Of a stretch of 34,964 nucleotides of DNA, positions 10,329-30,508 are shown piece after piece. Below the pieces are notes generated by a model. The model saw only the letters and a program-made list of their open reading frames with translations. It was not told where the DNA came from and ran no database searches. Source of the stretch: Planctomycetaceae bacterium (GTDB lineage Bacteria > Planctomycetota > Planctomycetia > Pirellulales > UBA1268); the NCBI GenBank assembly GCA_947459185.1, contig CANHCU010000031.1:1-34964 (forward strand), read 5' to 3'. A program made the position numbers and the translations under genes. Each line of letters begins with the position of its first letter. Within the stretch, counting starts at the first letter, position 1.

Positions 10329-11045
10329 ATGCGTTCCCTCCTGCTCTCCTTGTGCCTTGTCTTCCTCGTCTATCCGACCGGCACCCGCGGTGCATCGGCC
10401 GATCAGCCTGCGTCGCGGGCGGAACGAAGCATCGAAGGGTTTCGGGTACGGGTCGACGAACGTCTCCTGCCTGGATGTGCCGACGACGAGGTGGGCCGCG
10501 CGGCGCTCGCGTTTCTCGCCTCGAAGCTCGCCGATATCCGAATCGTCGTGCCAGCCGACAAGCTTGAACGTCTGCGTCAGGTAACGATCGTCCTCGACGC
10601 CTCCTGCGGCGATCTCGCTAGCATGCAGTATCACCCCAGCGGAGACTGGCTCGAGTCACACGGCTATCCCCGCGATCTCGAAAAGTGCATCCATTTGCCG
10701 AGAGCCGCCGACGTGGCTACTCGCCGAAACGTGAACGAACAGCCGTGGGTGGTGCTCCACGAACTCGCTCACGCCTATCACGATCAGGTGCTCGGGTTCG
10801 ACGAGCCGCGCATCCTCTCCGCCTGGGAGGCCTTCAAGGCCGACGGCCGGGCACAGACCACGCTCCTCTTCGATGGCTCGCGCACGAAGCACTACGGCCT
10901 CACCGATCAGAAGGAGTTTTTCGCGGAGATGACCGAGGCCTACTTCGGTTCAAACGATTTCCAGCCGTTCAACCGCGCCGAGTTGAAGACGGACCATCCG
11001 GCCATCTACGCCCTCCTCACCGACATCTGGGGCCCGCTTCGCTGA
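10329..11045 (+). CDS. Secreted HExxH metallopeptidase-like protein
   Basis: N-terminal signal peptide MRSLLLSLCLVFLVYPTGTRGASA; VVLHELAHAYHDQVLGFDEP (HExxH) and downstream EFFAEMTEAYFGSNDFQPF (candidate third-ligand Glu). Confidence 0.75.
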   Translation: MRSLLLSLCLVFLVYPTGTRGASADQPASRAERSIEGFRVRVDERLLPGCADDEVGRAALAFLASKLADIRIVVPADKLERLRQVTIVLDASCGDLASMQYHPSGDWLESHGYPRDLEKCIHLPRAADVATRRNVNEQPWVVLHELAHAYHDQVLGFDEPRILSAWEAFKADGRAQTTLLFDGSRTKHYGLTDQKEFFAEMTEAYFGSNDFQPFNRAELKTDHPAIYALLTDIWGPLR

Positions 11046-11109: not shown

Positions 11110-11238
11110 GGGGTTGCCCGTGCCCCAGGAGCCGGCGTTGCTGACCAGCGCAGGCAGGATGCCGAAGCGCAGTCAGCATCGAGAGAGCGGAGGCAGGATG
11201 CCGTAGCGAACGTCCGGCGACGGGGCACGGGCAACCCC
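11110..11238. repeat. Terminal-inverted-repeat element, copy A (129 bp)
   Basis: Perfect 17-bp arms GGGGTTGCCCGTGCCCC (11110-11126) / GGGGCACGGGCAACCCC (11222-11238); inverted homologous copy at 30250-30341. Confidence 0.8.
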
Positions 11239-11243
11239 GGCCG

Positions 11244-11412
11244 CCGGCCCTGTGCCGTAGCCTACAGCTTCCGCAGCCGCGTGAACTCGGGATTTTCGCG
11301 GAAAACACGGACATCGTGTCCGTTTTTCCTTGGCGGGCCTCCGCCCGCTGGTGCTGATCCGGGCCTCCGGCCCTGTGCCGTGACTTACAGCTTCCGCAGC
11401 CGCGTGAACTCG
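11244..11412. repeat. 46-bp direct duplication of the 3' end of the 91-aa gene (11244-11289 and 11367-11412)
   Basis: CCGGCCCTGTGCCGT...TACAGCTTCCGCAGCCGCGTGAACTCG appears twice with about 3 mismatches. Confidence 0.8.
11307..11327. terminator. Rho-independent-type terminator between convergent genes
   Basis: ACGGACA-TCG-TGTCCGT hairpin followed by TTTT, preceded by AAAAC (possibly bidirectional). Confidence 0.65.
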
Positions 11413-18337: not shown

Positions 18338-21142
18338 CTAGGCGAAGCTGACGTTCTGGAGCGAGACACCGTGCGTGTTCGTGCCCGACACGGTGACGGC
18401 GATCACGTTGTTCACGATCCGAACCGGACAGTTGATCGTCACGCCCTGCCACTGCAGCCCGATCTGCCCCATGCCGCCGTCCAGAAACTGACCGCCCGTC
18501 AGCGTCGCGGAGTTGCTCGCGGCGTTGACGCTGCGACCGAAGGCTGCGGCTGACGCCGAGATGGCCCGCAGCGACGTCGCAGATGCGACCGGCGGTGTCA
18601 GGGAGAGACTGTCTGAGACCGCGCCGGAGAGGCCCCAGCCGCTGTCGAAACGGATATTCGAAATGCTGATCGGGCCTGTGTCCGACGCATCTCCCACGAC
18701 GTTGATCGAGCAGGTGTTGTGCTCGACGCGGACGGAACCTTTGACGACCACGTCGCGCCACTGCAGGCCAATGTCACCCGTACCGCCGTCGAGGAACTGA
18801 TTGCGGACGAGCGTGCCGCTGTTCGACGCAGCATTCACCGGTCTCGCCTGTGCGGCCGGCGCCGCGGCCGACCCGTAGAGCGACACACGTTTCGCCGGGG
18901 CGGTCATGGCGGGTCTGGCCGAGAGGGTGCGGGACGGCGCACTTCCCGGGAATGCGATGCCGCTCAAGGTGATGGGACCGGCCTTGGCTCCTGGCGCGGA
19001 CCCTGTCGTGCCATTGTTGCTGACCTGGAGCACGTTGTTGACGATCACCAGACCGGTGCCGTCGCGAGTGACGGTTCGCCACTGCAGCGATGTCGCCGCC
19101 GCGGGTCCGCTCAGCACCTGCTTGTTTGTCTGGTTGACAGTGTTTGATTTCTTGGCGAATGCCGCATTGGGAACGAATGGGGGCGGGCCCACCGCGTTAG
19201 CAGGATTGACCGTCAGCGGAGGGAGCGTTGCCGGGGCGAGTCGCGGATCTCCAGCGGATGCCGCGGCGGAGCCGAAGACGACGTTCTGCACCGAGATGCC
19301 CGCGGCATTCGATCCTTCAGGCTGGATCGACAGAGAATTGTGAACGACCTGCACGCTGCCCTCGACCGACACGTTCGACCACTGCATGCCGATGTCGCCA
19401 AAGCCACCGTCGGCGAACTGGCTCTGTGAAACCAGTCCACTGTTGGTGGCCGAGTTGGCCTGGGACCGCGGCGTGCCAGGACTCGTCGGCACAGGAAGCG
19501 ATGGCGACACGGCGGTGCCCTGGGTGATGACAGCGGGCACTGATGACAGCACGCCGTCACTGGAGGTCTGCGAGGGGGTGAACGCCGGCGGCGACGCCGA
19601 GAAGGAGACGTCAGCGACGGTGATCAGACCCTGGTTGCTGTTCTCGGGCTGAACGGAGAGCGAGTTATAAGTCACCTCGACGCTGCCACTGACATGCACT
19701 GTCTGCCACTGCATTCCGATGTCACCGAACCCGCCGTCGGCGAACTGGCTGCTCGTGATCCGCCCGCTGTTGGTGGCGGCATTGCCCGGGCTGCTCCCGG
19801 TCGTGGTCCCGGCCGTACCGCTCGACGCCACGGGCGGGACCGACCCGTTGGGGTTCGCCTGCACAAGGCCCGCTTGGGCCGGAAGTCCGAACTCCTTCTG
19901 GCCGGTCGTGATGGAGCCGACGTTGTTGACTCCCGGCTGGATCTGCAGGCCATTGTGTTGCGTGGCCACCCGTCCGCCCACCGTCACATTGGACCACTGC
20001 AATCCGATGTCGCCAAAGCCGCCGTCGGCCAGCTGACTGGAGACGACGGCACCGGTGTTCGTGGCCGTGACAGGCGCGAAGAAGGTCAGCCGGATGGCCC
20101 CCGTCGCCTGCGGCCGCTTCGAGAGCATGAGCCGGTAGGGACCGCCGATCGATTGGATCACGGTCTTGGGCGGAATGCCCCTACCGGTGACCAGCATGCC
20201 GGGGTATAGCATGCTGGTGGGCGGAGCCGCGCCGGCGGGGCCCCTGGCGAACGTCACCAGCCGCGTCGTGGCCGTGAGCCTTCCGACGAGGATCGGGGGC
20301 CCGACAGACTTGGGGCCCGTCGTCGGCTGGATCAGCAGCCGCTCCGCGCCGACATCGATCGAGCCACCCACCTTCACGGTCCGCAGCTGCAGGCCGATGT
20401 CGCCAAAGCCACCGTCGGCGAACTGGCTGTCACGGATGGTGCCGGTGTTGACCGGCATGGCCTGCAAGGCCGGCGAGAACGGCACGGTGATGGGCGCGAC
20501 TGGCACGCTCGGCGACCCAAGAGTGGTTCGCGACACGATCGACAGGTCGCCGCCGACGGAGAGTCCGCTGGCCTGAATGCCGATCGGACCGAAGCCGCCG
20601 TCGTTGAACTGGCTGGAGGCGATGATGCCGGTATTGGTCACGACCCCAGGTGTGCCCGGCGGCACCTGCTGAGGCAGCAGGTTCGCGCCGCTCACAGGCA
20701 CAGGCTGCGTGCCCCCTGCAGATGGCTTCCCAATACTCTCGTCCACAACATCGACCCGCAGGCCGCCGTTGGGGAGGGTCACGTTCTGCAGTTGCAGTCC
20801 CACCGTGGTGAAACCGCCGACGTTCACCTGACTCCCGCTGATCAGCCCCGTGTTCACCGGCGTCTGTGGATAGCTGTAGTCGATGGGCGGAGTGGGCGGG
20901 GTGCCGATATTGTTCGGAGCCGTCAGCTGCAGCGATGCGACGTTCTTCGTCGTGACGTCGAGCAGTTGGGTTCCCAGCAGCGCATAGCCGTAGGGCTGGA
21001 ACTGACTGGCGACGATGGAGCCCGCGTTGGGGTCCACCGGTGCCGCGGCCAGAGCCAGCCGCGGTTCCAATTGCTCCGCCTGCACCAGCCGGCGACGGCT
21101 GTTTCGCGTGTCGCGTCGGTGGTGGTCGGCTCGTGTGGGCAT
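18338..21142 (-). CDS. Large repeat-rich surface/secreted protein with LEPR-type N-terminal motif
   Basis: N-terminal RRRLVQAEQLEPRLALAAAPVDPN; about ten repeats of the type NSG-x(4)-SQFADGGFGDIGMQW-x2-V-x-V-x-GSV... Confidence 0.82.
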   Translation of the reverse strand: MPTRADHHRRDTRNSRRRLVQAEQLEPRLALAAAPVDPNAGSIVASQFQPYGYALLGTQLLDVTTKNVASLQLTAPNNIGTPPTPPIDYSYPQTPVNTGLISGSQVNVGGFTTVGLQLQNVTLPNGGLRVDVVDESIGKPSAGGTQPVPVSGANLLPQQVPPGTPGVVTNTGIIASSQFNDGGFGPIGIQASGLSVGGDLSIVSRTTLGSPSVPVAPITVPFSPALQAMPVNTGTIRDSQFADGGFGDIGLQLRTVKVGGSIDVGAERLLIQPTTGPKSVGPPILVGRLTATTRLVTFARGPAGAAPPTSMLYPGMLVTGRGIPPKTVIQSIGGPYRLMLSKRPQATGAIRLTFFAPVTATNTGAVVSSQLADGGFGDIGLQWSNVTVGGRVATQHNGLQIQPGVNNVGSITTGQKEFGLPAQAGLVQANPNGSVPPVASSGTAGTTTGSSPGNAATNSGRITSSQFADGGFGDIGMQWQTVHVSGSVEVTYNSLSVQPENSNQGLITVADVSFSASPPAFTPSQTSSDGVLSSVPAVITQGTAVSPSLPVPTSPGTPRSQANSATNSGLVSQSQFADGGFGDIGMQWSNVSVEGSVQVVHNSLSIQPEGSNAAGISVQNVVFGSAAASAGDPRLAPATLPPLTVNPANAVGPPPFVPNAAFAKKSNTVNQTNKQVLSGPAAATSLQWRTVTRDGTGLVIVNNVLQVSNNGTTGSAPGAKAGPITLSGIAFPGSAPSRTLSARPAMTAPAKRVSLYGSAAAPAAQARPVNAASNSGTLVRNQFLDGGTGDIGLQWRDVVVKGSVRVEHNTCSINVVGDASDTGPISISNIRFDSGWGLSGAVSDSLSLTPPVASATSLRAISASAAAFGRSVNAASNSATLTGGQFLDGGMGQIGLQWQGVTINCPVRIVNNVIAVTVSGTNTHGVSLQNVSFA

Positions 21143-26062: not shown

Positions 26063-26800
26063 ATGATCGAGGTGATCGATCTTGTGAAGCACTATCGGGC
26101 CAGCGACGGCAGCGTCGTGCGGGCCGTGGATGGTGTTTCGCTCGCCGTTGCGCCGGGCGAGATGGTTGGCCTCCTCGGCGGCAACGGCGCCGGCAAGACA
26201 ACCACGCTGCGGGTGCTGGCCACGCTCTTGAAGCCGACGTCGGGCACCGCCCGCGTGGGTGGCTGCGACGTGTTGGCCGATCCGTTGGGAGCGAGGCGGC
26301 ATCTGGGCTACGTGTCGGCGACCACGGGCGTGCCCGACCGGCTCACGGCCCGCGAGATCATGCGGTCGTACGGCCGTCTGCACGGCCTCGACGAGGGGCC
26401 ACTCTCGCGACGCATCGACCTCGTCGTGCAGTCGCTCGGCCTCACCGACTTCATCGACCGGCCGACGGGCCGGCTCTCGTCGGGGCAGCGGCAACGGGTC
26501 TCGCTCGCCCGGGCGCTCGTGCATGATCCACCGGCGCTCGTGCTCGACGAACCGACCAATGCGCTCGACGTGGTCGGCGCACGCGATCTGCTCCACCTGC
26601 TCGACGGCCTCCGCGCGGATGGACGGGCGATCCTGCTCTCCACGCACCGGCTTCACGAGATCGAGCATCGCTGTGACCGATTCGTGATCATCGACGGCGG
26701 CCGCCTCGTGGCGCAGGGAACGCGCCCGGAGATTCTCGGCCCCCATGCGAGTCTGGAGGAGGCGTTTTTTGCGGCGCTGGCCGTGGGAGCAGCGTCATGA
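26063..26800 (+). CDS. ABC transporter ATP-binding protein, NatA-like
   Basis: GLLGGNGAGKTTTLRVLATLLKPTSGTARVGG, LSSGQRQRVSLARALVHDPPALVLDEPTNALD. Confidence 0.92.
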   Translation: MIEVIDLVKHYRASDGSVVRAVDGVSLAVAPGEMVGLLGGNGAGKTTTLRVLATLLKPTSGTARVGGCDVLADPLGARRHLGYVSATTGVPDRLTAREIMRSYGRLHGLDEGPLSRRIDLVVQSLGLTDFIDRPTGRLSSGQRQRVSLARALVHDPPALVLDEPTNALDVVGARDLLHLLDGLRADGRAILLSTHRLHEIEHRCDRFVIIDGGRLVAQGTRPEILGPHASLEEAFFAALAVGAAS

Positions 26801-29800
26801 ACGATTCCGAAGATCGCCGCACGGCGAAGGGTCAGGAAGCCGGCGGCCTGCGTGCCAAGGCGCGGCTGGCGCTGGCCCGACGCGACCTGCTCGAATTCAT
26901 CCGCGACCGTCGCACGCTGTTCGTCACGCTCCTGTTGCCGATGGCGATGTATCCCATTCTCGCACTCTCAAGCGCTCTGGGTGTGCGGACGGCGCTCTCC
27001 GACATCGATTCCCGGACGGCGCCCACCAATCTGGTCGTCGTGTTTTCCGGCTCGCCCTGGGATGCGCAGGCACTGGCGGAACGCATGGGCGGACTGCCGA
27101 AGCCTGAAAAGGGCCGGTTCAAGCTTGACTGGCCGGCCTCGGTGTCATTCGGGTTTGGGTCTGCCGAAGAGGCCAGGGCTGCCGTTGAAGCCGGTCAGGC
27201 CGACCTGTGGATCGAGGTACCCGAGCAGGTTCTCGACCAACTCGACGGCACCGGCACGATCTCGATCGAGGCGCAGGGGCCCGACACGAAAGTGCTGCCG
27301 CCGCGGGTGCAGGAACAGTTCACCGCCGTGATGGGGGGCCTGTCCGACGACGCCAGGAGACGGCGGATCGACCGGGCCGGTCTGCCGGAGAGCCTGCTCG
27401 ATCCGGTCGATGTCCGCTTCACCGGCAAGATCGATTCACCGGGAACGATTTCCACGCGCGGCATCCTGCCGACGGCCGCCGGGGGTGTATTCGTGCTGCT
27501 GGCCGTACTGACGATGACCGGCGCGTTCTACCCGGCCATCGACGCGATTGCCGGCGAAAAGGAACGGGGTACCATCGAGACGCTCCTCATCGCCCCCTGC
27601 GCGGCGATCGACATCGTGGCTGGAAAGTTTCTCGCGGTCTGGGCGGTGGCCCTGGCGACGCTCGTGGCGAACGTCGTCTCGATCGTTCTGACGACCGCCG
27701 TGTCGCTCCGCTTTCTGCCGCAGGGCGGAAGTCTGCTGCCGGAGGGGCACCTGCCGATCGTCGTGGGCGTGTCGCTTCTGGCGTTCATCGGATTATCGGC
27801 AGTCGCGGCAGCGATGTGCCTGGCCGTGACCACGGCGTCGAAGAGCGGCAAGGAGGCGCAAAACACGCTCACGCCTGTCCTGCTCATGGCCAGCGCCCTG
27901 GCCGGTGCAGGCCTGGTCATCGATCTCGGGAGAAACGCGCTGCTCCCGGCGGTGCCGTTCGCCGGACAGGTGGCTGTGGCTCGCGCTACGCTGGAACCCG
28001 ATGAACGTCCGGCCGTGCTGCCGTCTGAGACCACGGAGGGCCGGTCACAGTCACGGCCCGCCGGGCTCCCGGACCGGACCGCGGCCACCGGCCTCATCGA
28101 ACGGCTGGCCCTGCCGTTGGCTGTGTCGCTCATCTCTTCGGCCGTGATCGTCTGGCTCATGCTCCAGTTCACGGCGAACCTGCTCACCGACGAGGAGATC
28201 CTCTTCCGGGGGCCCGACGTCGCCGGCACACTCTGGTCGCGGCCCGCCCGCCGCCGCCGGCCTTCCGTGGCGCAGGGGCTCACGGCGCTGGCCGTCGGTC
28301 TGGCCGGCCTGTGGTATGCGCAGGGCATCGCGCCCGCCGACTTTGCCCTGGCGATTCCTGTGCAGCAGGCTGCCGCGGTGGTCTTGCCACTGGTCCTGCT
28401 CATGGCCTGGCAGCGGGTTGACCTGCGCCGCACGTTTGGCCTGCGGTGGCCCGAGGCGGCAGCCGGTGGCAGGGGTGGCGTGGTCGGGCGGACGGCTGCG
28501 AGTGTCTCAGGGGCGGTGCTGATCGGCGGTGGTCTGTTTGTGCTGGGGGCCGCGGTGCTTCTGGCCGTCCGTGGCACGCACGTGTCGGCGGACGCGAAAA
28601 CCCTGGCGGAGAAATTGATCGGCATGATGCGCGACAAACCGGTCTGGCTGTCGTGGGCACTGATCGCCCTGCTTCCAGCGATCGGTGAAGAACTCCTCTT
28701 TCGAGGCTGGGTGCAGTCGGCGCTCGTCGGAGCCTGGCCCAGCCGCAGCCGGATGGTGGCGGGCATCGTGGTGCAGGCGGCCTGTTTCGCGATCTTCCAT
28801 CTGCTTCCAGAACGCATGCCGCAGACGTTCGCCCTGGGGCTCGTGACCGGTAGCCTGACGCTGGCCACTGGGAGCATTCTGCCGGCCATCGCCTGCCATG
28901 CCGCCCACAACTCCATGCCGCTGGCGATGCTCTGGCTTGTTGGCGGCCTGTCGAACGCAGCCGACTCGCCAGACTCGGCCCCGGTGGTCGCGGCGGCTGC
29001 TGAGGGCGTGAGCCTGCCAGCTTGGGCGGTGATCGCGGCACTGGCGAGCGTGGCGGTGGGAGCAGCCGCGATCTGGCTGGTGGTCCGCGGACGGCCGAGG
29101 GCGGGCTTGGGCCGTCGGAGAGCCGGCGTCGCAGTCGCGTTGCTCGTCGCGCTGATTGGCAGCGACTGCATCGGCGGGCCTGGCCTGGCATCTGCTGCAG
29201 ACCCGGCGCCGGCCGCTGTCGCTACGGCTCCCCAACGGCTGCGCGTGGCCGTCGCGCCGCTTGCCTCGGCGGTCGAATGGGATGGCGATCAGCCCACCGG
29301 CGTGGTCATCGATATCTGGCGAGATCTTGAGAAGCGTCTCGGCACGGAGACCGACTTCGTTCGCGTGGACACGTTCAAGCGGCTGATGGAGACGCTGACC
29401 AGTGGCGAGGCTGACATGGCACTGGGACCGTTCGCGATCACCGAGGAGCGGGAGCGGATCTTCGACCTCACCCACCCGATCATCCATTCGGGCTTGCGGA
29501 TTGCCGTCCGCCAGCGTGACGAATCGGGATTCCTCTCGGCGCTTCGGTCGCTCTTCTCGTGGCAGTTGCTCCAGCTTCTGGGAACCGTTCTCCTGCTTGC
29601 CCTCGCCTCCGGCCATCTGCTCTGGTGGTTCGAGCATCGCGGCAACCCGGAGTCATTTCCGCCGCAGTATCCTCGGGGCATGTGGGAGGCCATCTGGTGG
29701 ATCGCATCGACGGTCGTCGCCGGCGGCTGCGACAATAAGCACGTCGCCAGCGGGCTTGGCCGCACGATCGCCTTTGCCTGGATGGTGGGCGGAATCATGC

Positions 29801-30231
29801 TCCTGGCAGCGTTCACCAGCGTGCTCACCGCCACGCTCACGGCGGAACAGGTGGCAGGAAACATTCACGGGCCCAAGGATCTCGCCGGCCGGACGGTCGG
29901 CTGCCAGGAGGCGGCGGTGACGGTGAAGGAGGTCAGGCGCAGGGGAGGTATCTCCAGAGAATTTTCCAAGCTCAACGAGGCCTTGGATGCACTCCGCCGG
30001 GATGAACTGGATGCCGTGGTCGGCGAGAACCAGCAGATGATGTTTCTGTTGAACCAGCCTGGACGTCAGAGTCTCAAACTCGTCGGCCCGATCTTCGAGT
30101 CGTTCGACTACGGCCTTGGGCTGCCCAACGGCAGTCCGCTCCGCGAGCCGCTCAACACGGCGATCCTGCGGATGCGGGAGGGTGGCACGATGGACCGCAT
30201 CCGCGAGCAGTGGCTCGGCAGGCACGACTAG
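26797..30231 (+). CDS. Fusion: NatB-like ABC-2 permease + CPBP protease + iGluR-like ligand-gated channel module
   Basis: LARRDLLEFIRDRRTLFVTLLLPMAMYPIL and FYPAIDAIAGEKERGTIETLLIAP (NatB/ABC-2); AIGEELLFRGW, FAIFHLL, AHNS (CPBP); LRVAVAP...GPFAITEERERIFDLTHPI / M1 / P / M2 / KDLAGRTVGCQ...MDRIREQWLG (SBP_bac_3 split by a channel). Confidence 0.88.
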   Translation: MNDSEDRRTAKGQEAGGLRAKARLALARRDLLEFIRDRRTLFVTLLLPMAMYPILALSSALGVRTALSDIDSRTAPTNLVVVFSGSPWDAQALAERMGGLPKPEKGRFKLDWPASVSFGFGSAEEARAAVEAGQADLWIEVPEQVLDQLDGTGTISIEAQGPDTKVLPPRVQEQFTAVMGGLSDDARRRRIDRAGLPESLLDPVDVRFTGKIDSPGTISTRGILPTAAGGVFVLLAVLTMTGAFYPAIDAIAGEKERGTIETLLIAPCAAIDIVAGKFLAVWAVALATLVANVVSIVLTTAVSLRFLPQGGSLLPEGHLPIVVGVSLLAFIGLSAVAAAMCLAVTTASKSGKEAQNTLTPVLLMASALAGAGLVIDLGRNALLPAVPFAGQVAVARATLEPDERPAVLPSETTEGRSQSRPAGLPDRTAATGLIERLALPLAVSLISSAVIVWLMLQFTANLLTDEEILFRGPDVAGTLWSRPARRRRPSVAQGLTALAVGLAGLWYAQGIAPADFALAIPVQQAAAVVLPLVLLMAWQRVDLRRTFGLRWPEAAAGGRGGVVGRTAASVSGAVLIGGGLFVLGAAVLLAVRGTHVSADAKTLAEKLIGMMRDKPVWLSWALIALLPAIGEELLFRGWVQSALVGAWPSRSRMVAGIVVQAACFAIFHLLPERMPQTFALGLVTGSLTLATGSILPAIACHAAHNSMPLAMLWLVGGLSNAADSPDSAPVVAAAAEGVSLPAWAVIAALASVAVGAAAIWLVVRGRPRAGLGRRRAGVAVALLVALIGSDCIGGPGLASAADPAPAAVATAPQRLRVAVAPLASAVEWDGDQPTGVVIDIWRDLEKRLGTETDFVRVDTFKRLMETLTSGEADMALGPFAITEERERIFDLTHPIIHSGLRIAVRQRDESGFLSALRSLFSWQLLQLLGTVLLLALASGHLLWWFEHRGNPESFPPQYPRGMWEAIWWIASTVVAGGCDNKHVASGLGRTIAFAWMVGGIMLLAAFTSVLTATLTAEQVAGNIHGPKDLAGRTVGCQEAAVTVKEVRRRGGISREFSKLNEALDALRRDELDAVVGENQQMMFLLNQPGRQSLKLVGPIFESFDYGLGLPNGSPLREPLNTAILRMREGGTMDRIREQWLGRHD
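28660..28965 (+). other. CPBP intramembrane protease domain within the fusion ORF (approximate bounds)
   Basis: EELLFRGW at about 28687, FAIFH and CHAAHNS downstream. Confidence 0.8.
29239..30228 (+). other. iGluR-like module: S1 29239-29540, M1 29560-29634, P-loop 29680-29739, M2 29764-29850, S2 29870-30228 (approximate)
   Basis: Periplasmic-binding-protein lobes interrupted by hydrophobic helix, re-entrant-like segment and a second helix FTSVLTATLTAEQV, comparable to the SYTANLAAF region of iGluRs. Confidence 0.8.
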
Positions 30232-30249: not shown

Positions 30250-30341
30250 GGGGCTGCCCATGCCCCGTCGCCGGACGCTCGCTATGGGCATTCTGCCCTC
30301 CGCTTGTCAGCAACGCCGGCTCTCGGGACATGGGCAGCCCC
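30250..30341. repeat. Terminal-inverted-repeat element, copy B (92 bp), inverted relative to copy A
   Basis: GGGGCTGCCCATGCCCC (30250-30266) / GGGACATGGGCAGCCCC (30325-30341); interior shares GCCGGCGTTGCTGAC and AGCGTCCGGCGACGGGGC with copy A. Confidence 0.8.
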
Positions 30342-30365
30342 TCACGGATGATTCAGGTTCCATAC

Positions 30366-30508
30366 AAGCCCCCGGCGCAAGCCGGGGGATGAAGCCGGTC
30401 GGCTATGGGCGGGACGGGGAATCCCATCGCTCGCGCTCCGGGCTTGTATGAACGCTCCCATAAAAGCCCCCGGCGCAAGCCGGGGGATGAAGCCGGTGGG
30501 CTATGGGC
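30366..30508. repeat. Two REP-like hairpins in a 98-bp-period direct repeat
   Basis: AAGCCCCCGGCGCAAGCCGGGGGATGAAGCCGGTSGGCTATGGGC at 30366-30410 and 30464-30508; hairpins 30369-30388 and 30467-30486 with GCAA loops. Confidence 0.85.

Follow-up and report, generated by a model that had tools for sequence, protein, structure and literature searches.

The 34,964-nt stretch of planctomycete DNA analysed here (the window) contains two similar palindromes, and raises the question of whether they are copies of a mobile repeat or RNA structures serving the ends of the adjacent genes. An earlier note, made from the sequence alone, had left this choice open by describing a MITE/REP-like mobile or RNA-structured 3' element. 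Two folded palindromes are indeed present: their arms pair, their folds exceed those of dinucleotide shuffles (z = −8.9 for copy A, −8.6 for the sense strand of copy B), and a covariance model (R1, built from 40 diverse copies) recovers both. Copy A (nt 11110–11238) lies with its sense strand on the plus strand and scores 139.2 bits (E = 9e-27), while the shortened copy B (nt 30250–30341) is on the minus strand and scores 83.9 bits (E = 1.7e-15). In copy A the outer helix is formed by a 5' arm, GGGGTTGCCCGTGCCCC (nt 11110–11126), that pairs perfectly over 17 bp with the 3' arm, GGGGCACGGGCAACCCC (nt 11222–11238). Within it are helix 2, with GCCGG at nt 11131–11135 and its partner CCGGC at nt 11214–11218, helix 3 (GCTGAC/GTCAGC, nt 11140–11177), which bears inner hairpin 1 (nt 11153–11163, GGA loop at 11157–11159), and inner hairpin 2 (nt 11192–11202, GGA loop at 11196–11198). 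Both inner hairpins read GGCA-GGA-TGCC. The arms of copy B have a single pairing exception, which is A·C on the plus strand of the window and G·U on the sense strand of the element.

Both copies are near gene 3' ends, as the note had stated, and both are situated between convergent genes (ORF list and hexamer gene calls). The gene upstream of copy A (nt 10329–11045, plus strand) ends 64 nt before it, and 146 nt separate the copy from the minus-strand stop codon on its other side; for copy B the corresponding distances are 18 nt, to the stop of the plus-strand gene at nt 26797–30231, and 189 nt. Elsewhere in the window, a long minus-strand ORF (nt 18338–21142), apparently for a repeat protein, includes a direct repeat of roughly 99 nt in five copies (nt 18726–20450).

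BLAST searches with copies A and B found at least 57 distinct copies, some of them partial, in the 4.09-Mb assembly of the source genome (G000). This is an undercount because many copies lie at contig ends, and with so many assembled copies the resemblance between A and B is not due to chance. In a sister species (G002), 1.54 Mb of sequence yielded 41 copies, or about 105 per genome by extrapolation. Each of the five genomes in the genus carries the repeat, as do 62 of the 72 genomes of the GTDB family, in which 12 genera were sampled. A class-wide search of 398 genomes with the covariance model, under strict filters, was positive for 14 of 16 family members and for none of the 382 genomes outside the family. 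The element is, on these counts, a dispersed, high-copy repeat of about 130 bp that is present dozens to hundreds of times per genome and is specific to one planctomycete family. Named records that carry it are freshwater-type planctomycete MAGs, and the repeat explains why assemblies of MAGs from this family break at the same sequence. Viral contigs gave no match to the core pattern, and Rfam returned none at the gathering score in the window and none at E-values up to 1 in four element loci. The sister-species sequences are CAMCQY01 records (L116, L076; 65.6% GC) submitted under the name Candidatus Kuenenia stuttgartiensis; these MAGs belong to the same GTDB genus as the window and carry the same repeat, and the label looks wrong.

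The consensus structure has seven helices and 44 base pairs, consisting of an 18-bp outer helix, the GCCGG/CCGGC helix (invariant in 40/40 aligned copies), the GCTGAC/GTCAGC helix with hairpin 1, and a short helix with hairpin 2. Across the alignment, 97.9% of cells are paired. Changes on both sides were seen in 23 of the 44 pairs, compared with 9.5 in shuffles; none of 500 shuffles reached 23, and slid controls gave at most 6. Twelve of the 18 pairs of the outer helix and five of the nine of helix 3 are among those changed on both sides. The compensatory arm changes first noticed between A and B are therefore real and extend to many copies, so that the case allowed for in the note, of two isolated copies with no covariation, does not apply. 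The outer helix even continues beyond a tandem G·A/A·G mismatch (103/146 copies) into a further covarying pair at positions −3:+3 (TA 79, CG 17, GC 11), which is paired in 107 copies against a shuffled maximum of 89. One detail of the original description turned out to be the wrong way round: copy A contains no additional internal duplication. Two hairpins are standard in the genome-wide alignment, and it is copy B, along with a few others, that has lost one hairpin by deletion of the stretch between direct repeats AGCGnAGGCAGGATGCCGnAGCG (around GGCAGGATGCC); its GGA has also become GAA. Hairpin 2 is a hot spot for the insertion of further hairpins, which gives expanded apices such as GCGGGCACCGATCCG...CGGATTGGTC (loci L092 587, L103 7388–7600, L277 589–746 and L266 4539–4695).

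An apical GGA is retained in both hairpins in about 98% of copies, on stems that vary (GGCCA, GGGCA, GGCA, GGACA, GCCCA, GAACA). Such loops could make the repeat a dispersed CsrA/RsmA sponge, in which every transcribed copy would present CsrA with a pair of A(N)GGAX hairpin loops. For each hairpin, the hexaloop ATGGAT occurs in about 30 copies and matches the high-affinity ANGGAX consensus of CsrA/RsmE (PMC4005645), csrA is found in 72/72 family genomes, and the one csrA gene read (G036) retains the V-H-R binding segment. However, csrA is equally present in genomes that lack the element, most loops are without the N (the commoner form is AGGAT), which is the lower-affinity form for CsrA (PMC4005645), and a preference for the transcribed sense is seen neither for the element nor for other intergenic GGA-loop hairpins (38 vs 31). 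We regard a sponge as very improbable. Most family genomes have two to five csrA paralogs, often with two on one contig about 14–15 kb apart, and in the sister species loops that contain GGA or TCC are clearly commoner in intergenic than in coding hairpins.

With gene calls made on genome pieces, 20 of 37 copies were found to lie between convergent genes, an arrangement that accounts for 71 of the 392 intergenic regions (18%) measuring 150 nt or more in that DNA. Copies are depleted between divergent genes, where promoters lie. Other genera present a similar picture. Between tandem genes, orientation is near even (37 sense to 24 antisense). When 17 sites of the source genome were traced in sequence pieces of the sister species, 15 still held an element although the adjacent repeats and intergenic DNA differ, and in two of these 15 the element is inverted. 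Since sister species have most sites in common, present-day movement must be slow. None of the three copies inspected that are specific to the sister species displayed unambiguous insertion ends or a clean empty site, and for the clearest case of site absence (L230/L330) a deletion at ACGG microhomology fits equally well.

RNA-like covariation and stability, together with the placement of copies at the 3' ends of genes and in convergent intergenic regions, and the persistence of the element at orthologous sites while neighbouring DNA turns over, would suit a host-functional RNA element that is selected locus by locus, for mRNA end protection, attenuation or as a bidirectional barrier between convergent genes. 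The evidence on strand use speaks against this. Read on the sense strand, the arms of 76 distinct copies contain 77 G·U pairs and 9 A·C pairs; these counts would be exchanged on the opposite strand, and so the sense strand is the one that bears the fold. Consistent with this, computed folding gives a more stable RNA for the sense than for the antisense strand in 140 of 143 copies. Unpaired columns show no excess of C>T, so the bias does not stem from a mutation pressure on one strand. Were the fold to serve the local mRNA, copies transcribed in antisense should lose their sense bias, but they keep it: G·U:A·C is 26:4 in antisense-transcribed and 32:1 in sense-transcribed copies, and broken pairs per copy do not differ (0.84 and 0.79, respectively). 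The weak orientation preference between tandem genes, the inverted copies at two shared sites and the lack of a U-tract beside the hairpin also count against a locally selected host RNA, which we judge unlikely. A preference for one replication strand, assessed by GC skew, is weak at 56:90, a ratio that includes some copies twice and is confounded by gene strand.

The bias is seen in mutations that have spread. Changes private to one copy are evenly divided (7 G·U, 8 A·C), which is a further point against selection at each locus, while states common to at least two copies have G·U:A·C at 13:3, and at 148:6 cells in the commonest class. The contrast between shared and singleton states is small (Fisher p = 0.066), and so is suggestive only, but the one-strand constraint appears to act when copies are made and not in the local 3'UTR. 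Of the two halves of the original description, the REP/MITE-like dispersed repeat is thus upheld, while an RNA acting in the local 3'UTR is not, and neither is a classical MITE (see below).

Comparison of the two sister species also reveals a loss of identity between orthologous elements. In 7 of 14 ortholog pairs the two elements resemble each other no more than typical paralogs do (rank 12–37 of about 41), which indicates that copies are overwritten or replaced. This would be expected of a passive family, in which ancient copies, neither mobile nor functional, are homogenised by recombination or gene conversion and their palindromes corrected by template switching. Deletions between direct repeats (copy B; C8/L279), tandem local arrays of the repeat (C40, C222) and the lack of a candidate enzyme also fit such a process. 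Template-switch correction is strand-symmetric, however, and given the strand-specific bias among propagated wobbles it cannot be the whole story; in addition, near-invariant unpaired GGA loops on varied stems need some selection. We consider purely passive maintenance to be improbable.

If copies are propagated, an enzyme may be sought among the neighbours of the repeat. The note had proposed looking for a cognate transposase, but no link to Y1 genes was found by neighbourhood or by co-occurrence. The source genome has two Y1 genes with the Y----Q motif, which fits planctomycete class 3 proteins (PMC6006769), and their flanks carry REPs, of a separate family for each gene, and not the branched repeat. 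One of these RAYT-like genes (contig C196; L072 1111–1818) is flanked by REP type 1 (CCCCCGGCGCAAGCCGGGGG), a hairpin that also occurs in the window at nt 66–96. The second (L073 997–1803, L221 58–423) adjoins an ornithine carbamoyltransferase-like gene, has the same position in both sister species, and in the source genome is flanked by a different REP family (GCTTGCGCTGCGGGCTTGGATGG). Repeat searches located a REP type 1 hairpin upstream of copy B (nt 30358–30388), with a second nearby (nt 30456–30486), and the same fixed offset recurs upstream of 17 copies in the source genome, which indicates that the repeats build mosaics. Other hairpin repeats with varying stems (TTGGCGGGCCTCCGCCCGCTGGTGCT, ATGGCATCCTGCCAT) adjoin the element at nt 11320–11387 and in the flanks of many copies.

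The fixed REP offset, the presence of REP-flanked Y1 genes of planctomycete class 3 type, and a strand-specific fold that would agree with Y1 chemistry invite the idea of a REPIN mobilised in trans by these RAYT-like transposases. None of the six Y1 loci in the genus is flanked by the element, however, or has a copy within about 1.5 kb. Y1 genes were found in 26 of 72 family genomes, unrelated to the presence of the element, by a Pfam model against which class 3 Y1 proteins score weakly, so some may be missed. Four element-rich genomes that are 93–97% complete (G044, G048, G054, G060) had no detected Y1, and two genomes with four (G032) and two (G017) Y1 genes have no element. Mobilisation in trans by Y1 seems quite improbable on these distributions. 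Reverse transcriptase (RVT_1) and IS110 likewise gave no match in the genus, and the repeat is able to dispense with Y1, reverse transcriptase and IS110 genes.

Taken together, we lean towards a non-autonomous, family-specific REPIN/ERIC-like repeat that is copied through a folded single strand. The sense strand would fold into the long outer helix, the invariant GCCGG/CCGGC helix and two GGA-tipped hairpins, and those copies that fold well as this strand would be the ones copied onward. The folded strand may be a copying intermediate, of ssDNA or RNA, and the copying would be performed by a host or mobile enzyme. Location at gene 3' ends could mean that insertions into genes and promoters are selected against. 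Once inserted, a copy would mostly drift in place or be overwritten by other copies. A bias in shared states with none in private ones is the expected outcome if well-folding copies multiply and then drift. Set against this copying model are the failure to find an enzyme or a clean insertion, the small singleton/shared contrast and the slow movement. More tentatively, the repeat may represent a novel class of structured element, selfish or domesticated, whose replication passes through a single folded strand of RNA or ssDNA and uses no Y1, reverse transcriptase or IS110 enzyme, and whose fitness lies in the folding of that strand during copying. How REP- and ERIC-like repeats persist without a dedicated transposase is an open question, raised for the CGTC REPs (PMC3733652). 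The present repeat covaries strongly, in hundreds of copies spread over an entire bacterial family, and it comes with a built-in test, as the strand bias of propagated versus private mutations tells which strand matters and when, making the copying step directly testable.

Compared with known repeat classes, the element may be set beside the REPIN/BIME systems with their RAYTs (PMC3116915, PMC3733652, PMC6006769), with which it shares a hairpin unit of about 100 bp, inverted arms, high copy number, an intergenic location near gene 3' ends, single-strand folding and mixing with REP hairpins in mosaic regions. It differs in having no GTAG or CGTC tag at its ends (flank consensus ATCCGTGA/GGGG ... 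CCCC/GAACCG), no linked RAYT and no co-occurrence with Y1, and in that its arms form one long helix with a branched interior and not independent tagged REPs. MITEs such as Correia/NEMIS or RUP (PMC2229807) are also non-coding, shorter than 200 bp and high in copy number, with terminal inverted repeats, here the 17–18 bp arms. Unlike them, the repeat is constrained on one strand, has no autonomous relative with the same ends and lacks a target-site duplication, as there is no excess of 5–8 nt matches in copy flanks. An excess of 3–4 nt at offset 3 is explained by the stem pairing at −3:+3, where the helix continues past the mismatch. Among sampled loci, half-elements 0.15–5 kb apart that might mark a larger copy with the same ends were seen at two only, both with a 261-bp gap. 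Integron attC sites were rejected, as the R' (RYYYAAC) and R'' (GTTRRRY) end boxes occur in 0/146 copies on either strand. RNAs of the CsrB/RsmZ type (PMC4005645) also have GGA in hairpin loops, but the repeat encloses two such hairpins in a long closed helix, is dispersed in both orientations and has given no evidence of a promoter of its own. ERIC/IRU (PMC2229807), compared here by description, is similarly a palindromic intergenic repeat (about 127 bp) of one bacterial family with no proven transposase; the present repeat belongs to another lineage and has an outer helix of 17–18 bp where ERIC has a 7-bp TIR, no 5'-TA-3' termini in its flank consensus, no detected target-site duplication and a branched, GGA-tipped interior. 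It therefore fails tested defining features of REPINs (tag, linked RAYT), MITEs (target-site duplication, parent) and ERIC (TA ends), and constitutes a new family, specific to its lineage, of palindromic repeats that are long, branched and strand-polarised and that work like REPIN or ERIC.
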